From an uncultured Pelagibacteraceae bacterium (lineage in GTDB: Bacteria; Pseudomonadota; Alphaproteobacteria; Pelagibacterales; Pelagibacteraceae): a stretch of 64,000 nt of DNA. Made by a program: the position numbers and the translations under genes. The stretch spans positions 62,001-126,000 of the forward strand of contig CACNCB010000001.1 in the NCBI GenBank assembly GCA_902618695.1, read 5' to 3'. A model generated the notes under the pieces. The model saw only the letters and a program-made list of their open reading frames with translations. It was not told the DNA's origin and searched no databases. Positions 45,487-52,450 of the stretch are shown piece by piece; position 1 is the first letter of the stretch; each line of letters opens with the position of its first letter.

Positions 45487-47217
45487 TTAATAAAGATTCT
45501 CTAACTGATTTTTATATTTTTCTGTAACTTTTTTTCTTTTTACTTTCATTGTTGGTGTCATTAAACCATTTTCAATAGAAAAATTTTCATCTATTAATTG
45601 AATTTTTTTAATCTTTTCTAATAAAGTTAATTTTTTATTTATTTTTTCAATTACTTTATTTATTTTTTCATTTTCATTTAAAAAATCTTTGTTAGGTACA
45701 ATTAAAGCAACTAAATAATTTTTTTTATCACCATAAACCATACATTGATCAATTTCTGGCTCATTTGTGATCATATTTTCAATTTTAGCTGGTGAAATAT
45801 TATCACCTCCAGCACTTACTATGATATCTTTTTTTCTATCAGTAATTTTTAAGTAACCGTCATTTGGATCTATCTCTCCAATATCACCTGTATGAAGCCA
45901 TCCATTTATAATTACTTTATCAGTTTCTTCTTTTTTATTCCAATATCCTAACATTACATTTTCACCTTTAACTAAAATTTCTCCATCCTCAGCAATTTTA
46001 ACTTCATTTCCTTTAAATGGAGGTCCTACAGTTTCTACTTTTATTTTATGTATTGGATTACAACTTACTACTGGAGATGTCTCAGTTAACCCATAGCCCT
46101 GAAGAGTTGGTAGCCCTATGGCATTTAAAAATTCACCTATTTCTCTATCTAAAGCACCACCACCTGAAACAAAAGCTTTTAAATTTCCACCAAATTGTTT
46201 TTTTATTTTTTTTCTAACTAATTTATCAACTATAAAATTGAGTAATTTTTCAGAAAAAGCCATTTTTTGATTAAATAGTTTTTTTCTTCCTAATCTAATA
46301 GTTGCTTCAATTAATTTTGCTTTAAAACCCGTTTGTTTTTTTAAATTCATGTTTATTTTGTTGTAAAGGTTTTGGTAAAACCTAGGTACAGCTGCCATAA
46401 TTGTAGGCTTTGCTTCAGATATATTTTCCAGAAGTTTTTCAATTTTTTCAGCATAGAATACTCTAGCCCCTACTGCTATCTGTACAAATTGAAGACAGTG
46501 CTCATAAGAATGAGAAAGTGGAAGCCAAGTTAAAAATACAGGTCTTGAATTAAATAATGGTTTTGTAATTTCACACGATCCAACAACATTATTTAAAATT
46601 CCACCGTGACTTAAAATTACACCCTTGGGATTTCCTCCGGTTCCTGAAGTATAAATTATACATGCTGGAGACTTTCTGTTTAATTTATTATTTTCGATTT
46701 TATCTTCCTCTAATAAATTATTCTTTAAAATAGAATTATAATCTAAATATTTTTCTTTGTTATTTAAACTTAAATTATTTATTACCTTAGTTATTTCATC
46801 TAAAGTTATAACTTTTTTAATAAAGTCTTTTTCATTAATTATATTATTTAATTTTTGTAGCATATCATTATTTGAAACAATAACTAAGCTAGGTTCACAA
46901 TCTTCTATCAAATACTTATAATCATCTTCTATATAAGTTGTATATGCTGGAACTGTGATACCACCAGCTAACATTATAGCTAAATCAGAAACAAACCACT
47001 CAGGTCTATTCTCCGAAACTAAAAGACATCTATCGCCTTCTTTTATATTTTCTTTAATAACTTTTGATAAATTCAAAATATTCTTTTCAGTTTGTTCCCA
47101 CGTGTATATTTTTTTATTGCTTGGGTTTAGCCATTCTAAAAAAATATCTTTTTTATTTTGTTTATTTGCTTGATTAGAAAACAATTCTATCAAATTATTT
47201 AAATTATCTAATTTCAT
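45487..47217 (-). CDS. Long-chain acyl-CoA synthetase (AMP-forming)
   Basis: A protein of 576 residues in the ANL superfamily, FadD15/ACSL-like. Motifs are IIYTSGTGGNPKGVILSHGG (P-loop), LQGYGLTETSPVVS, and DRKKDIIVSAGGDNISPAKIE (hinge and C domain). It activates fatty acids to acyl-CoA. Its start lies 8 bp from the 3' end of the interrupted tRNA-Leu, so it was probably cotranscribed with that tRNA. The integrated element now separates it from the old upstream promoter. Confidence 0.9.
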   Translation of the reverse strand: MKLDNLNNLIELFSNQANKQNKKDIFLEWLNPSNKKIYTWEQTEKNILNLSKVIKENIKEGDRCLLVSENRPEWFVSDLAIMLAGGITVPAYTTYIEDDYKYLIEDCEPSLVIVSNNDMLQKLNNIINEKDFIKKVITLDEITKVINNLSLNNKEKYLDYNSILKNNLLEEDKIENNKLNRKSPACIIYTSGTGGNPKGVILSHGGILNNVVGSCEITKPLFNSRPVFLTWLPLSHSYEHCLQFVQIAVGARVFYAEKIEKLLENISEAKPTIMAAVPRFYQNLYNKINMNLKKQTGFKAKLIEATIRLGRKKLFNQKMAFSEKLLNFIVDKLVRKKIKKQFGGNLKAFVSGGGALDREIGEFLNAIGLPTLQGYGLTETSPVVSCNPIHKIKVETVGPPFKGNEVKIAEDGEILVKGENVMLGYWNKKEETDKVIINGWLHTGDIGEIDPNDGYLKITDRKKDIIVSAGGDNISPAKIENMITNEPEIDQCMVYGDKKNYLVALIVPNKDFLNENEKINKVIEKINKKLTLLEKIKKIQLIDENFSIENGLMTPTMKVKRKKVTEKYKNQLENLY

Positions 47218-47224
47218 AATTACT

Positions 47225-47278
47225 TGGTGGGCGAAGAGAGAATCGAACTCTCACTTCTTGCGAAACACGATTTTGAGT
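47225..47278 (-). pseudogene. 3' half of host tRNA-Leu(CAA), split by the element
   Basis: On the minus strand this gives the anticodon loop ACTCAAAA, the 3' anticodon stem TCGTG, the variable arm, T stem/loop GAGAG-TTCGATT-CTCTC, acceptor TTCGCCC, discriminator A and an encoded CCA (47225-47227). No acceptor 5' strand GGGCGAA or D arm exists on its element side. Joined to 52351-52389 it forms a perfect class II tRNA-Leu with CACGA/TCGTG around the loop CTCAAAA. Confidence 0.93.
47271..47278. repeat. Left attachment repeat (core)
   Basis: TTTTGAGT is identical to 52351-52358. The similarity resumes 4 bp further in, where both sides have CGCGTCT (47283-47289 and 52363-52369), part of the D arm on the host side. 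The core matches the 7-nt tRNA anticodon loop plus one stem base, a classic crossover site of tyrosine recombinases. Confidence 0.9.
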
Positions 47279-47677
47279 ACAACGCGTCTCGTTTCATATT
47301 AAAATTACCCAGTAAATCCTACGCAAATTACACATCAAATTATACAAAACCTTTGTGTAAGACCTGTGTAAGACCTTTCCTTTCTTTTATCAGTCTAATT
47401 TATACGCAACAGAAAATAAATTAAAAAAAAATATCAAATCCACCACTCTTCTTGTCTAAATAGTTATGTAATGATGAGTAATCTTACTTACACCGCGTAC
47501 GACTTAATTAAATAGTCATTTAAATAGTGTATTGAGACTACTTCTTAAATAGACATTTATCGTTATATAATTTTTTTAGTACGACTTTGATAACGCAGTT
47601 GAAATCAGAAACAAAATTATGAATGTCTAAAACAGATATATTTCAAAAGTCGCCTAAAAACGACCTATGTTAGAAAT
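47279..47677. promoter_or_regulatory. Noncoding left end of element with repeated TAAATAG motifs
   Basis: About 400 bases hold no convincing ORF. TAAATAG occurs four times within 96 bp, at 47457-47463, 47509-47515, 47521-47527 and 47546-47552, all in one orientation, upstream of the Rep-like gene. They could be iterons or operator sites. A TATAAT-like box on the minus strand (47339-47344) might serve the acyl-CoA synthetase gene, but no good -35 box accompanies it. AT richness makes short repeats less significant. Confidence 0.4.
47354..47375 (+). repeat. Left arm-type repeat pair (TGTGTAAGACC twice)
   Basis: Two perfect tandem 11-bp copies of TGTGTAAGACC begin 76 bp inside the left core. 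A matching pair at 52274-52294 lies 56 bp inside the right core. The shared 13-mer CTTTGTGTAAGAC is identical at both ends. Spacing and placement fit integrase arm-binding sites. Confidence 0.65.
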
Positions 47678-49750: not shown

Positions 49751-49991
49751 AGATTTGCCTTTCAACATTCAACAATTCTTTTTGAAGTTTAGTACCTATC
49801 AATTTTAATAGTAGAATAGTCGCATAATCCGCCTCATTTTTAATGATTTTTGAACGACAATGACTATTACATTCAGAACTGAACATATGAGTAATTGTTG
49901 CCTCAAAATATGAAGTAGAACGACCAAATGCTACTGCTGTTGTTAATAGACAGAAACTAAAGAAAAGAATTGTTAACAATCTAAACATCAC
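49743..49991 (-). CDS. Small exported protein of the element (82 residues)
   Basis: An N-terminal signal peptide (MMFRLLTILFFSFCLLTTAVA) is followed by about 60 residues with SSECNSHCRSK, a Cys-x3-Cys pair. The C-terminal helix is amphipathic (ILLLKLIGTKLQKELLNVE). Its start overlaps the stop of the serine recombinase gene by 11 bp, so translation is coupled. It is probably periplasmic or membrane-attached. No family recognised. Confidence 0.55.
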   Translation of the reverse strand: MMFRLLTILFFSFCLLTTAVAFGRSTSYFEATITHMFSSECNSHCRSKIIKNEADYATILLLKLIGTKLQKELLNVERQIYD

Positions 49992-50691
49992 ACATATTCC
50001 TTTCTAACTCTATATTACAAATGTTTCTGATTAGTTGTTCTTCTCTATCTCTAGTTAAGAGTTTGTTAATGAAAGAATAATGCCATTTACGACCAGTATA
50101 TTTTTCCATAAAAGACTTGATGTCTTTGTACTTACTACCTTTTGCTCTTAACGATTTAACAAGATTGATTTCTTTCTGTTCTTTTTCACAAATAACAAGT
50201 TGACCATTATCGCCTAAATCATAACCTTTTCTGACTTTGCCACCTGTGTACTTACCTTGTTTTTTAAGTTTATCTTTTGCTACTATTTGTTTTTCAGATA
50301 AAGACTTTCTGTACCATTCAGACATAATAGAAAGTATTTGATAAAAGACAGACCCAAGACTATCAGATGAAATAACATCTCCTAAATCAGTAAAGATTAG
50401 TCTGATTTTAAGTCTTCTATATTTCTCAACATCATTAACTAATCCATAATGAGAACGAGAATATCTATCTAATGCTGAACAAATAATAGTATCACCTTTT
50501 TTAAGTTTAGTAGTTAAAAGACCACCTTGTTCGCGTTGAAACATCAACAAACCACCGCTACAAACATCTTCAAACCATTCGTTAACTCTTAAATTGTGAA
50601 TATTACAATACGAATTTATTTTAAACTTTTGTGTATCAAAAGAACTCGTACTACCTTCTTCACTAGACTTTCGTAAGTATCCATAAATCAT
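49981..50691 (-). CDS. Serine recombinase (resolvase/invertase type)
   Basis: A protein of 236 residues. The catalytic motif is YLRKSS with Ser9, and the arginine-rich block ALDRYSRS (R76, R79) is standard for the family. A helical dimer region follows, then a small C-terminal DNA-binding part after about residue 145. The ribosome binding site AAAGGAG is strong. A second recombinase besides the tyrosine integrase suggests DNA inversion, dimer resolution or cargo exchange in the element. Three genes for exported proteins follow in overlap. Confidence 0.85.
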   Translation of the reverse strand: MIYGYLRKSSEEGSTSSFDTQKFKINSYCNIHNLRVNEWFEDVCSGGLLMFQREQGGLLTTKLKKGDTIICSALDRYSRSHYGLVNDVEKYRRLKIRLIFTDLGDVISSDSLGSVFYQILSIMSEWYRKSLSEKQIVAKDKLKKQGKYTGGKVRKGYDLGDNGQLVICEKEQKEINLVKSLRAKGSKYKDIKSFMEKYTGRKWHYSFINKLLTRDREEQLIRNICNIELERNMCDV

Positions 50692-50853
50692 AAAAAACTC
50701 CTTTCGTTTATTTCATTGAGATACATCACAATGAAAACGCTAACAAAAACCTAGTCCTTTTCAACCATTTGCTTATGTTGATACTCTTACACAATCCAAT
50801 AGACGATTGTGTCTAACACATAAAAAACAACGATTTGATGATTTAAGAGAGTG

Positions 50854-50936
50854 TGCGAGTGAAGAGATTTGAACTCTTACCTAGTTGCCTAGAGACGTTC
50901 TTGAGACGCCCGCGTATACCGTTCCGCCACACTCGC
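50854..50936 (-). tRNA. Element-borne complete tRNA-Leu(CAA)
   Basis: On the minus strand the acceptor GCGAGTG pairs with CACTCGC. D arm GCG/CGC contains the GG pair. The anticodon stem GGCGT/ACGTC encloses CTCAAGA, anticodon CAA (50901-50903). A variable arm CTAG-GCAA-CTAG, T arm AAGAG-TTCAAAT-CTCTT and discriminator A complete it. CCA is not encoded, unlike the host tRNAs in this window. Acceptor, anticodon stem and variable arm differ from the split host tRNA-Leu, so it is no recent copy. It begins 20 bp after the integrase stop, and position 37 is G rather than A. Confidence 0.95.
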
Positions 50937-50956
50937 ATAAGTATTTTTTAAAAAAT

Positions 50957-52228
50957 TTAAGATACTCGTTTTATATCTTTTCGTCCAGTTGCTAACCATT
51001 GACTTAACATATTTTCTAACGCAACATTTGCTGTATAGAAATTCTCAATCATAGTGACCGAAGTACCACAATTCTTTGCTATATCAATTGCTTTAACACC
51101 TTTGTCCAACATAAACTGAATAAATGTACTTCTTAAAGACTTACTATCAATTGTTAATGTTCTTTCGCCTCTTTTAATAGTTTTAAGTCCTGCCTCTTTT
51201 AATAAAGAATTAAGTCCTTCTCTAAATGATTTAACATTAAAAATAGTACCTGAAATACTACCAAGACCTGTTGTTTTGTATAAATTGATAAGTCTCTTAT
51301 ATGCGAAATATGCTGATGAAACTGACTTAACTTCTCTCTCTTTATTAGTCTTACTTTTTCGTAAATAGATTTTTAAATAATATCTCTCATTCTCATTAAG
51401 AATAATCTCTTGTTCCATTATTCTTTTAGATTTCTGTCTATCAACCATTTCAACATCTTCAAAATGTAGATTTAAACATTCATCTACTCTTAATCCTGTA
51501 CCAACCATAAACACAATAAATTGATGTAGTCTTTCTCTTTCAAATCTAACTCTTAAAGAATGACCAGATTGATACCTCTTCCTAGAAACAGATAATAAGT
51601 GATTATAGTTTTCCCTAGATAGTTGTGCTCTTAATGTTTTTTGACCTCTTAATTTTCTTGCTAATATTTGTTTGATTTTAGTAATCTTGTCTTGTCTTAA
51701 ACCTTGTTCCATTGCCCAAGTAGTGAATGCTTGAATTGCCATTAAGTCACCCTCTATTGTTTTACCTCTTAATACTTTCTTTTGTGCTTTCTCTCTCTTA
51801 ACTCTCCAATCCATAAAAGTTTCTTTAACATCATTCAATTTGAAACCTATTTTTAAATTCATAAACGATTTACACTTACTCAACATATTCCATCTGTCTT
51901 TGTACCACTTCTTTGTTTGACCCTCTATTTTAGTTGAGTTCTCAATTGAAGTTATGAAGTTGTGATAAACATCTTTAACTGATGATTGATGTATCTGTAT
52001 ATTCTCTTCATCTAAAACTTGTAGTTTATCGTACCACTTAAACAGAATTTCTTTTGCCTTTTTAAAGTTATTAGTACCAGATGATTTAATAGTCTGTTTA
52101 GATTGTATGAAAGTACGACCAACGAAGTTATCTGACTTCAATTTTCCTTTGTATTTGTCTGTACGAACATAAATGTGAAGTTTGCCGTCTTTAAAATGAT
52201 GTACTTTTGTGAGTTCTTTTTTACCCAT
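50957..52228 (-). CDS. int: Tyrosine recombinase / integrase
   Basis: A protein of 423 residues with an N-terminal arm-binding/SAM-like region (to about 190) and a C-terminal catalytic domain. Catalytic residues are Arg247 (GTGLRVDECL), a Lys near 291-293, Arg366 (KSLRSTF) and Tyr398 (MIENFYT). The usual His of HxxR is Lys363 and the second His/Trp position is Thr in NCGTS, as in the divergent GTS-type integrases. It catalyses integration at the tRNA anticodon loop. AGGT precedes the ATG. Situated next to the right attachment site, transcribed away from it. Confidence 0.93.
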   Translation of the reverse strand: MGKKELTKVHHFKDGKLHIYVRTDKYKGKLKSDNFVGRTFIQSKQTIKSSGTNNFKKAKEILFKWYDKLQVLDEENIQIHQSSVKDVYHNFITSIENSTKIEGQTKKWYKDRWNMLSKCKSFMNLKIGFKLNDVKETFMDWRVKREKAQKKVLRGKTIEGDLMAIQAFTTWAMEQGLRQDKITKIKQILARKLRGQKTLRAQLSRENYNHLLSVSRKRYQSGHSLRVRFERERLHQFIVFMVGTGLRVDECLNLHFEDVEMVDRQKSKRIMEQEIILNENERYYLKIYLRKSKTNKEREVKSVSSAYFAYKRLINLYKTTGLGSISGTIFNVKSFREGLNSLLKEAGLKTIKRGERTLTIDSKSLRSTFIQFMLDKGVKAIDIAKNCGTSVTMIENFYTANVALENMLSQWLATGRKDIKRVS

Positions 52229-52273
52229 ATTTACCTAATTATTAACACAAAACCTTAACCGCGTGTACTACTT

Positions 52274-52294
52274 TGTGTAAGACTTATGTAAGAG
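52274..52294 (+). repeat. Right arm-type repeat pair
   Basis: TGTGTAAGAC at 52274-52283 and TATGTAAGAG at 52285-52294 repeat with an 11-bp period, same orientation and same period as the pair at 47354-47375. Located between the integrase start and the right core. Single related copies occur at 48212-48221 and, reversed, at 50784-50794. Confidence 0.6.
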
Positions 52295-52350
52295 TGTGCG
52301 TATTGACTAAAACCTAGACCTGATTTGACTTATTTTATGTAATTAACAAG

Positions 52351-52358
52351 TTTTGAGT
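52351..52358. repeat. Right attachment repeat (core)
   Basis: TTTTGAGT, identical to 47271-47278. On the minus strand it reads ACTCAAAA, the anticodon loop of the host tRNA-Leu, directly followed by element sequence CTTGTTAATT that cannot form the 3' half of a tRNA. Confidence 0.9.
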
Positions 52359-52389
52359 CGTGCGCGTCTACCAGTTCCGCCATTCGCCC
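52351..52389 (-). pseudogene. 5' half of host tRNA-Leu(CAA), split by the element
   Basis: Minus strand: acceptor GGGCGAA from 52389, TG, D arm GCGGAACTGGTAGACGC, then the 5' anticodon stem CACGA and loop to the attachment core. It pairs perfectly with the 3' half at 47225-47278 (acceptor TTCGCCC, stem TCGTG). At this junction the tRNA stops inside the loop, so no functional tRNA can be made from it. Confidence 0.93.
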
Positions 52390-52404
52390 TTGGTATTCAA
52401 TTAA

Positions 52405-52410
52405 ATTATA
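52405..52410 (-). promoter_or_regulatory. -10 box of the former tRNA-Leu promoter
   Basis: A perfect TATAAT on the minus strand ends 15 bp upstream of the tRNA 5' end at 52389. No clear -35 box is visible 16-18 bp further upstream. If active, transcription now runs through the tRNA 5' half into the element's integrase gene and then its tRNA-Leu. Confidence 0.4.
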
Positions 52411-52450
52411 TTTAATAGTATAAGAACTAAATTTATATTAAAACCTAAAA

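Follow-up and report, generated by a model that had tools for sequence, protein, structure and literature searches.

Among actinobacteriophages, a tRNA-dependent form of lysogeny has been described in which the attachment cores are short, the host tRNA gene is not rebuilt and the cognate tRNA of the phage is required, as established by experiment (PMC10865867). The same strategy was suggested for one Lactobacillus prophage (PMC10865867). Phage Gaia (Cluster X) targets tRNA-Leu(CAA) through an 8-bp core and carries a tRNA downstream of int (PMC10865867); in the Gaia record (KJ567043) a tRNA-Leu(CAA) gene lies 286 bp past int on the same strand. In the arrangement typified by KplE1 intS ('STI'), a tRNA gene precedes int in the same orientation. 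A count of such arrangements gave 736; frequently their int promoter extends across attL and the integrase represses it, and the same work already considers coupling to tRNA promoters (PMC2951348). Islander-type tRNA islands use a tyrosine integrase for site-specific integration at the tRNA anticodon loop and repair the interrupted gene with a fragment that attP brings in (PMC4383910). Marine satellites and tycheposons (named in PMC11389934 and PMC10872708) are small tRNA-linked integrative elements with a tyrosine recombinase.

The locus described here lies in a 64,000-nt stretch of DNA (the window; 29% GC) from a member of the Pelagibacteraceae (SAR11). The tRNA-Leu(CAA) gene, present in the host as a single copy, is split in two by a mobile element of about 5 kb (insert length 5,080 bp; all features given below are on the minus strand). 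The 5' half (52351..52389) ends in the att core and the 3' half, CCA included, occupies 47225..47270. Rejoining the host flanks yields a perfect 85-nt gene that folds as tRNA-Leu(CAA), and uninterrupted empty sites, up to 95% identical, are found in relatives. The core common to both junctions is the 8-bp sequence ACTCAAAA, which corresponds to the anticodon loop plus one base; one copy is at attL (52351..52358) and the other at attR (47271..47278), directly preceding the 3' half. This core is too short to rebuild a tRNA: attL consists of the 5' half followed by unrelated sequence, attR of unrelated sequence followed by the 3' half, and ARAGORN found no tRNA at either element junction. Reading along the minus strand, the order is host promoter, tRNA 5' half, 130 bp, int, 20 bp and a complete replacement tRNA-Leu(CAA), followed within the element by a gene of the serine resolvase/invertase family (49981..50691; PF00239, E=2.7e-22) and then by small genes. 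The insert carries a tyrosine-family integrase (PF00589), and its attB, with matching empty sites, lies inside a host tRNA gene. No structural phage genes were recognised within the 5 kb among Pfam and PHROG profile matches; the element may be a satellite, plasmid-like or derived from a phage.

The resemblance to Gaia is close. Both systems use a tyrosine integrase and an 8-bp core to target tRNA-Leu(CAA), neither rebuilds the target, and both carry a tRNA-Leu(CAA) of their own downstream of int on the same strand. They differ in phylum, in the SAR11 element's size of 5 kb and lack of recognised structural phage genes, and in the distance from int to the tRNA (20 bp versus 286 bp). They also differ in that the tRNA is only presumed to be needed in SAR11, and tRNA-Leu(UAA) might partly cover UUG. 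The two integrases have no detectable similarity in a pairwise comparison; hence, the resemblance is one of strategy. Compared with KplE1, the co-oriented order of tRNA and int is the same and the putative int promoter region would overlap attL and putative arm sites; however, an intact tRNA lies beside int in KplE1, whereas here a dead 5' half precedes int and a separate tRNA follows it. The anticodon-loop site and the tyrosine integrase are shared with the Islander-type islands but the gene restoration is not. As to the marine satellites and tycheposons, likeness in size, habitat and tRNA linkage extends to tandem copies in one relative (see below) that resemble circular or concatemeric DNA; no hallmark gene, as far as the sources drawn on define these, was seen in the SAR11 element. 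The strategy itself is already known from the actinobacteriophages, and the SAR11 element is an unrelated, minimal version of it. It appears to combine, within 5 kb, tRNA-dependent integration with the pattern of an int promoter overlapping attL.

A search of about 800 genomes of the order and genus, together with one scan of 84,980 species genomes, returned three relatives, and all family comparisons rest on these and the window copy. Two are integrated in tRNA-Leu(CAA): L010 (genome G072; int 69% identical, 5,057 bp) and L009 (AG-349-F22, G779; int 67%, 5,034 bp). The third, L008 (int 62%), consists of head-to-tail units of about 5,064 bp, 97-100% identical to one another, without chromosomal flank; it shows a joined attP, that of either a circle or a concatemer. 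The L008 contig (NHCX01000044.1) is filed under a Verrucomicrobia MAG, contains solely copies of the SAR11-type element, and is probably a misbinned circle or packaged concatemer. In all four members, tRNA-Leu(CAA) starts 20-21 bp past the int stop. The recurrence of this pairing in the three relatives, along with the uninterrupted empty sites, indicates that the arrangement is not due to chance. No further members came to light when 399 genomes of the genus were searched again. No relatives were found in viral contig scans (IMG/VR) with int, an int alignment and the resolvase, nor in a phage collection searched with int; a plasmid search returned one distant integrase. More distant resolvase neighbours (L051-L054) and long integrase-like ORFs (L004-L007, L166) were set aside for want of a nearby tRNA-Leu(CAA). 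The L004-L007 ORFs (708-724 aa) come from other SAR11 genomes; their match to the integrase is confined to its N-terminal ~90 residues (50-52% identity), and they possibly share its DNA-binding domain on a larger protein.

The int gene (50957..52228) encodes a tyrosine integrase of 423 aa (PF00589, Phage_integrase, E=9.7e-8; PHROG 1 integrase, E=1.7e-13). Its frame is intact, with 62-69% identity to the relatives and conserved R, R and Y residues; R247, R366 and Y398 are kept in all four members and the histidine of the H-x-x-R motif is apparently replaced (KSLR or KSFR). Identity to the G072 and G779 copies is 97% and 93% for the resolvase, compared with 69% and 67% for int, so that the element looks mosaic, its int-tRNA end having been exchanged or evolving faster. 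Shine-Dalgarno strength was dropped as a clue to int translation: among 39 host genes in the window, only 8% are preceded by such a sequence, and its absence before int therefore means nothing.

The replacement tRNA-Leu(CAA) (50853..50936, ARAGORN) was correctly placed by the preliminary description 20 bp past the int stop (tRNA 50936-50853; stop at 50957). Its sequence is quite different from that of the host tRNA-Leu(CAA). Among the 31 tRNAs found in the host genome (G000), the CAA anticodon is intact only in the element tRNA, which thus appears to be the only copy left, allowing for the genome's 89.5% completeness; in a complete relative (G003), tRNA-Leu(CAA) is single copy. A tRNA-Leu(UAA) is present in the same genome. 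This tRNA could read UUG by wobble and might partly cover the loss, so that the element tRNA is presumed rather than known to be needed. The replacement tRNA of G072 (L003:1393-1476) keeps the full 8-bp core in its anticodon loop, which makes it a possible second integrase target; the core is changed in the replacement tRNAs of the other three members. The replacement tRNA and the resolvase gene are separated by an intergenic stretch with a block of 23 nt (ATTGGATTGTGTAAGAGTATCAA, 50778..50800) that is identical in all four members and holds an inverted arm-like site (GTGTAAGA).

No terminator was found between int and the replacement tRNA, and the 20-bp gap is too short to accommodate a separate promoter outside int. 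A weak candidate promoter, TGGACG-N17-TATCTT (AGGACG in L009), lies inside the int 3' end (50959..50987) in an unchanged position in each of the four members, with its TATCTT box 22-23 nt upstream of the tRNA. All four also use identical codons at the last five invariant positions of int, as against 43% overall. This conservation is suggestive; the block is nonetheless unexceptional, being equalled or exceeded by 20 of the 1245 windows within int, and its -10 score is poor (TATCTT, 4/6).

Upstream of int, the preliminary description had proposed that the old host tRNA promoter, with TATAAT at 52405-52410 as its -10 box, now reads through the tRNA 5' half into int. The hexamer (52405..52410) is present as claimed, and the 5' half begins at 52389. 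It is probably not the tRNA -10, occurring near the tRNA in 16 of 31 close orthologues and being absent from most distant ones. Furthermore, a single TATAAT means little in DNA of 29% GC, where a promoter scan gave 19 matches against 18.8 expected. Scoring against the -10 consensus was likewise dropped: regions upstream of tRNA genes score no better than shuffled sequences, and conservation across relatives alone carries weight. By this measure, the -10 of the tRNA is probably a WATACTAT box, here TATACTAT (52415..52422), which shows little or no variation ahead of the orthologous tRNA-Leu(CAA) genes and, in almost every one, ends 21-27 nt short of the tRNA. The wider proposal fares better. 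The region upstream of the tRNA at attL is intact and resembles that of empty sites, the promoter is co-oriented with int, and no intrinsic terminator was found between the host promoter or tRNA 5' half and int. An acyl-CoA ligase gene begins with its ATG 4-7 nt past the tRNA at 28 empty sites, suggesting that the promoter normally makes a joint tRNA-mRNA transcript. In the window int now occupies the place of the ligase gene behind the tRNA promoter, and the sequence context suggests that the host promoter probably reads into int to some degree. The extent to which this applies to the family varies: in L009 the tRNA 5' half lies about 15 nt past an unrelated gene on the same strand, so the captured material differs between hosts and no single captured promoter is common to them. 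At the other end of the insert, the host ligase-like gene (45487..47217), second gene of the native transcript, begins with its ATG 7 nt past the tRNA 3' half and is now severed from the tRNA promoter. Its frame is intact here and in both other integrated copies despite this loss; the right end of the element thus probably supplies a promoter. An extra TATAAT near 47345 is found only in the window copy, within a stretch missing from the relatives.

The 130-bp leader between the core and int contains two TCTTACA[CT] direct repeats (TCTTACAT and TCTTACAC; left pair, 52275..52293), which recur near attR (right pair, 47355..47373) and in all the relatives. By analogy with other integrases, these would be arm-type sites. 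The leader also contains a candidate internal promoter. In L010, L009 and L008, an extended -10 (TGTTATA[AC]T) with a TACAC box 17 bp upstream (TACAC[TG]-N17-TATA[AC]T) ends 10-11 nt before the int ATG; in 40 nt of comparable sequence, 0.003-0.005 occurrences of the 9-mer TGNTATA[AC]T would be expected. The motif is thus present also in L008, which has neither host flank nor tRNA 5' half. In the window the corresponding sequence is TACACG - 17 bp - TAATAA(T) (52238..52267) and the extended -10 reads TGTTAATAAT, with one inserted base; this disruption is confined to the window copy, whose own int promoter may have lost strength, giving read-through a relatively greater part. A candidate for a separate promoter directly before int, a feature which the preliminary description had named as evidence against its reading, is thus seen in three of the four members and disrupted by a single base in the window. 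Promoter-like and arm-like repeats overlap within the leader. Because the TGTGTTA/-10 motif also resembles an inverted arm site, its conservation may partly or wholly reflect integrase binding. The idea that int is expressed only upon integration is difficult to maintain, since integrase must be made before integration can occur; int probably has a promoter of its own, and a switch-on restricted to the integrated state seems unlikely.

We consider the following scheme fairly probable as a whole. Using the 8-bp core, the integrase would recombine into the anticodon loop of the only tRNA-Leu(CAA) gene of the host and thereby destroy it. The element's own tRNA-Leu(CAA) would cover the loss; its place directly behind int would allow the rescue tRNA and the integrase to move together as a module. 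The int gene would most likely be transcribed in two ways: from an internal promoter among the arm sites before its ATG, which would work in circular DNA too and may, judging from conservation and the KplE1 precedent, be repressed by the integrase itself; and, in the integrated state, by read-through from the host tRNA promoter. The replacement tRNA would probably be served by transcripts arriving through int, and a weak promoter at the int 3' end may or may not contribute. A model in which int and the tRNA each have a promoter, before the ATG and in the int 3' end respectively, and host read-through contributes nothing meaningful, appears doubtful. It draws on the conserved boxes before int, on the fixed spacing of TATCTT and the frozen 3'-end codons, and on the best-studied analogue, phage Fionnbharth, whose rescue tRNA has a strong promoter of its own (PMC10865867), yet the TATCTT match and its block are as weak as described above, and no reason is apparent why transcription from the host promoter should end at attL.

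A more extreme dependence on the host, in which int expression comes mainly or entirely from its tRNA promoter, a single transcript holds the 5' half, integrase message and tRNA, and int is expressed only after integration, strikes us as quite unlikely. The need for integrase prior to any integration, the promoter-like sequence directly before int in three of the four members, one of them devoid of host DNA, the unrelated same-strand gene before the 5' half of L009 and the poor conservation of the proposed TATAAT all argue against it, in spite of an intact, co-oriented promoter with no terminator behind it that natively serves a tRNA-mRNA pair, a 20-bp int-tRNA gap kept in four members and a degraded internal promoter in the window. 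This last feature, the one-base disruption of TGTTATA[AC]T in the window only, could also mean that the copy is stranded and decaying, its int promoter lost and selection acting only on the rescue tRNA. Such decay is very improbable given the intact int frame, its 62-69% identity to relatives and conserved R, R and Y residues, and the intact resolvase and other genes, att cores and arm sites. The narrower statement that in the integrated state the host promoter yields one RNA, in which the dead 5' half is followed by the int message and then by the replacement tRNA, is one that we put forward with considerable reserve.

More solid than any reading of the promoters is the finding that this is a minimal integrative element with tRNA-dependent integration, an independent case in SAR11; its anatomy, core and conservation are observed, and we infer the rescue of the lost tRNA. 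If the single RNA exists, the supply of tRNA-Leu(CAA) and the level of integrase would be set by the same host promoter, and loss of the element would also entail loss of the int-tRNA transcript, with the window copy, owing to its degraded internal int promoter, as the most dependent member. The adjacency of int and tRNA, together with the displaced tRNA-acyl-CoA ligase operon, makes shared transcription directly testable. SAR11 genomes keep one copy of nearly every tRNA, and the occurrence of such integration, with an unrelated integrase, in a 5-kb SAR11 element suggests that the strategy has evolved repeatedly and suits minimal genomes.
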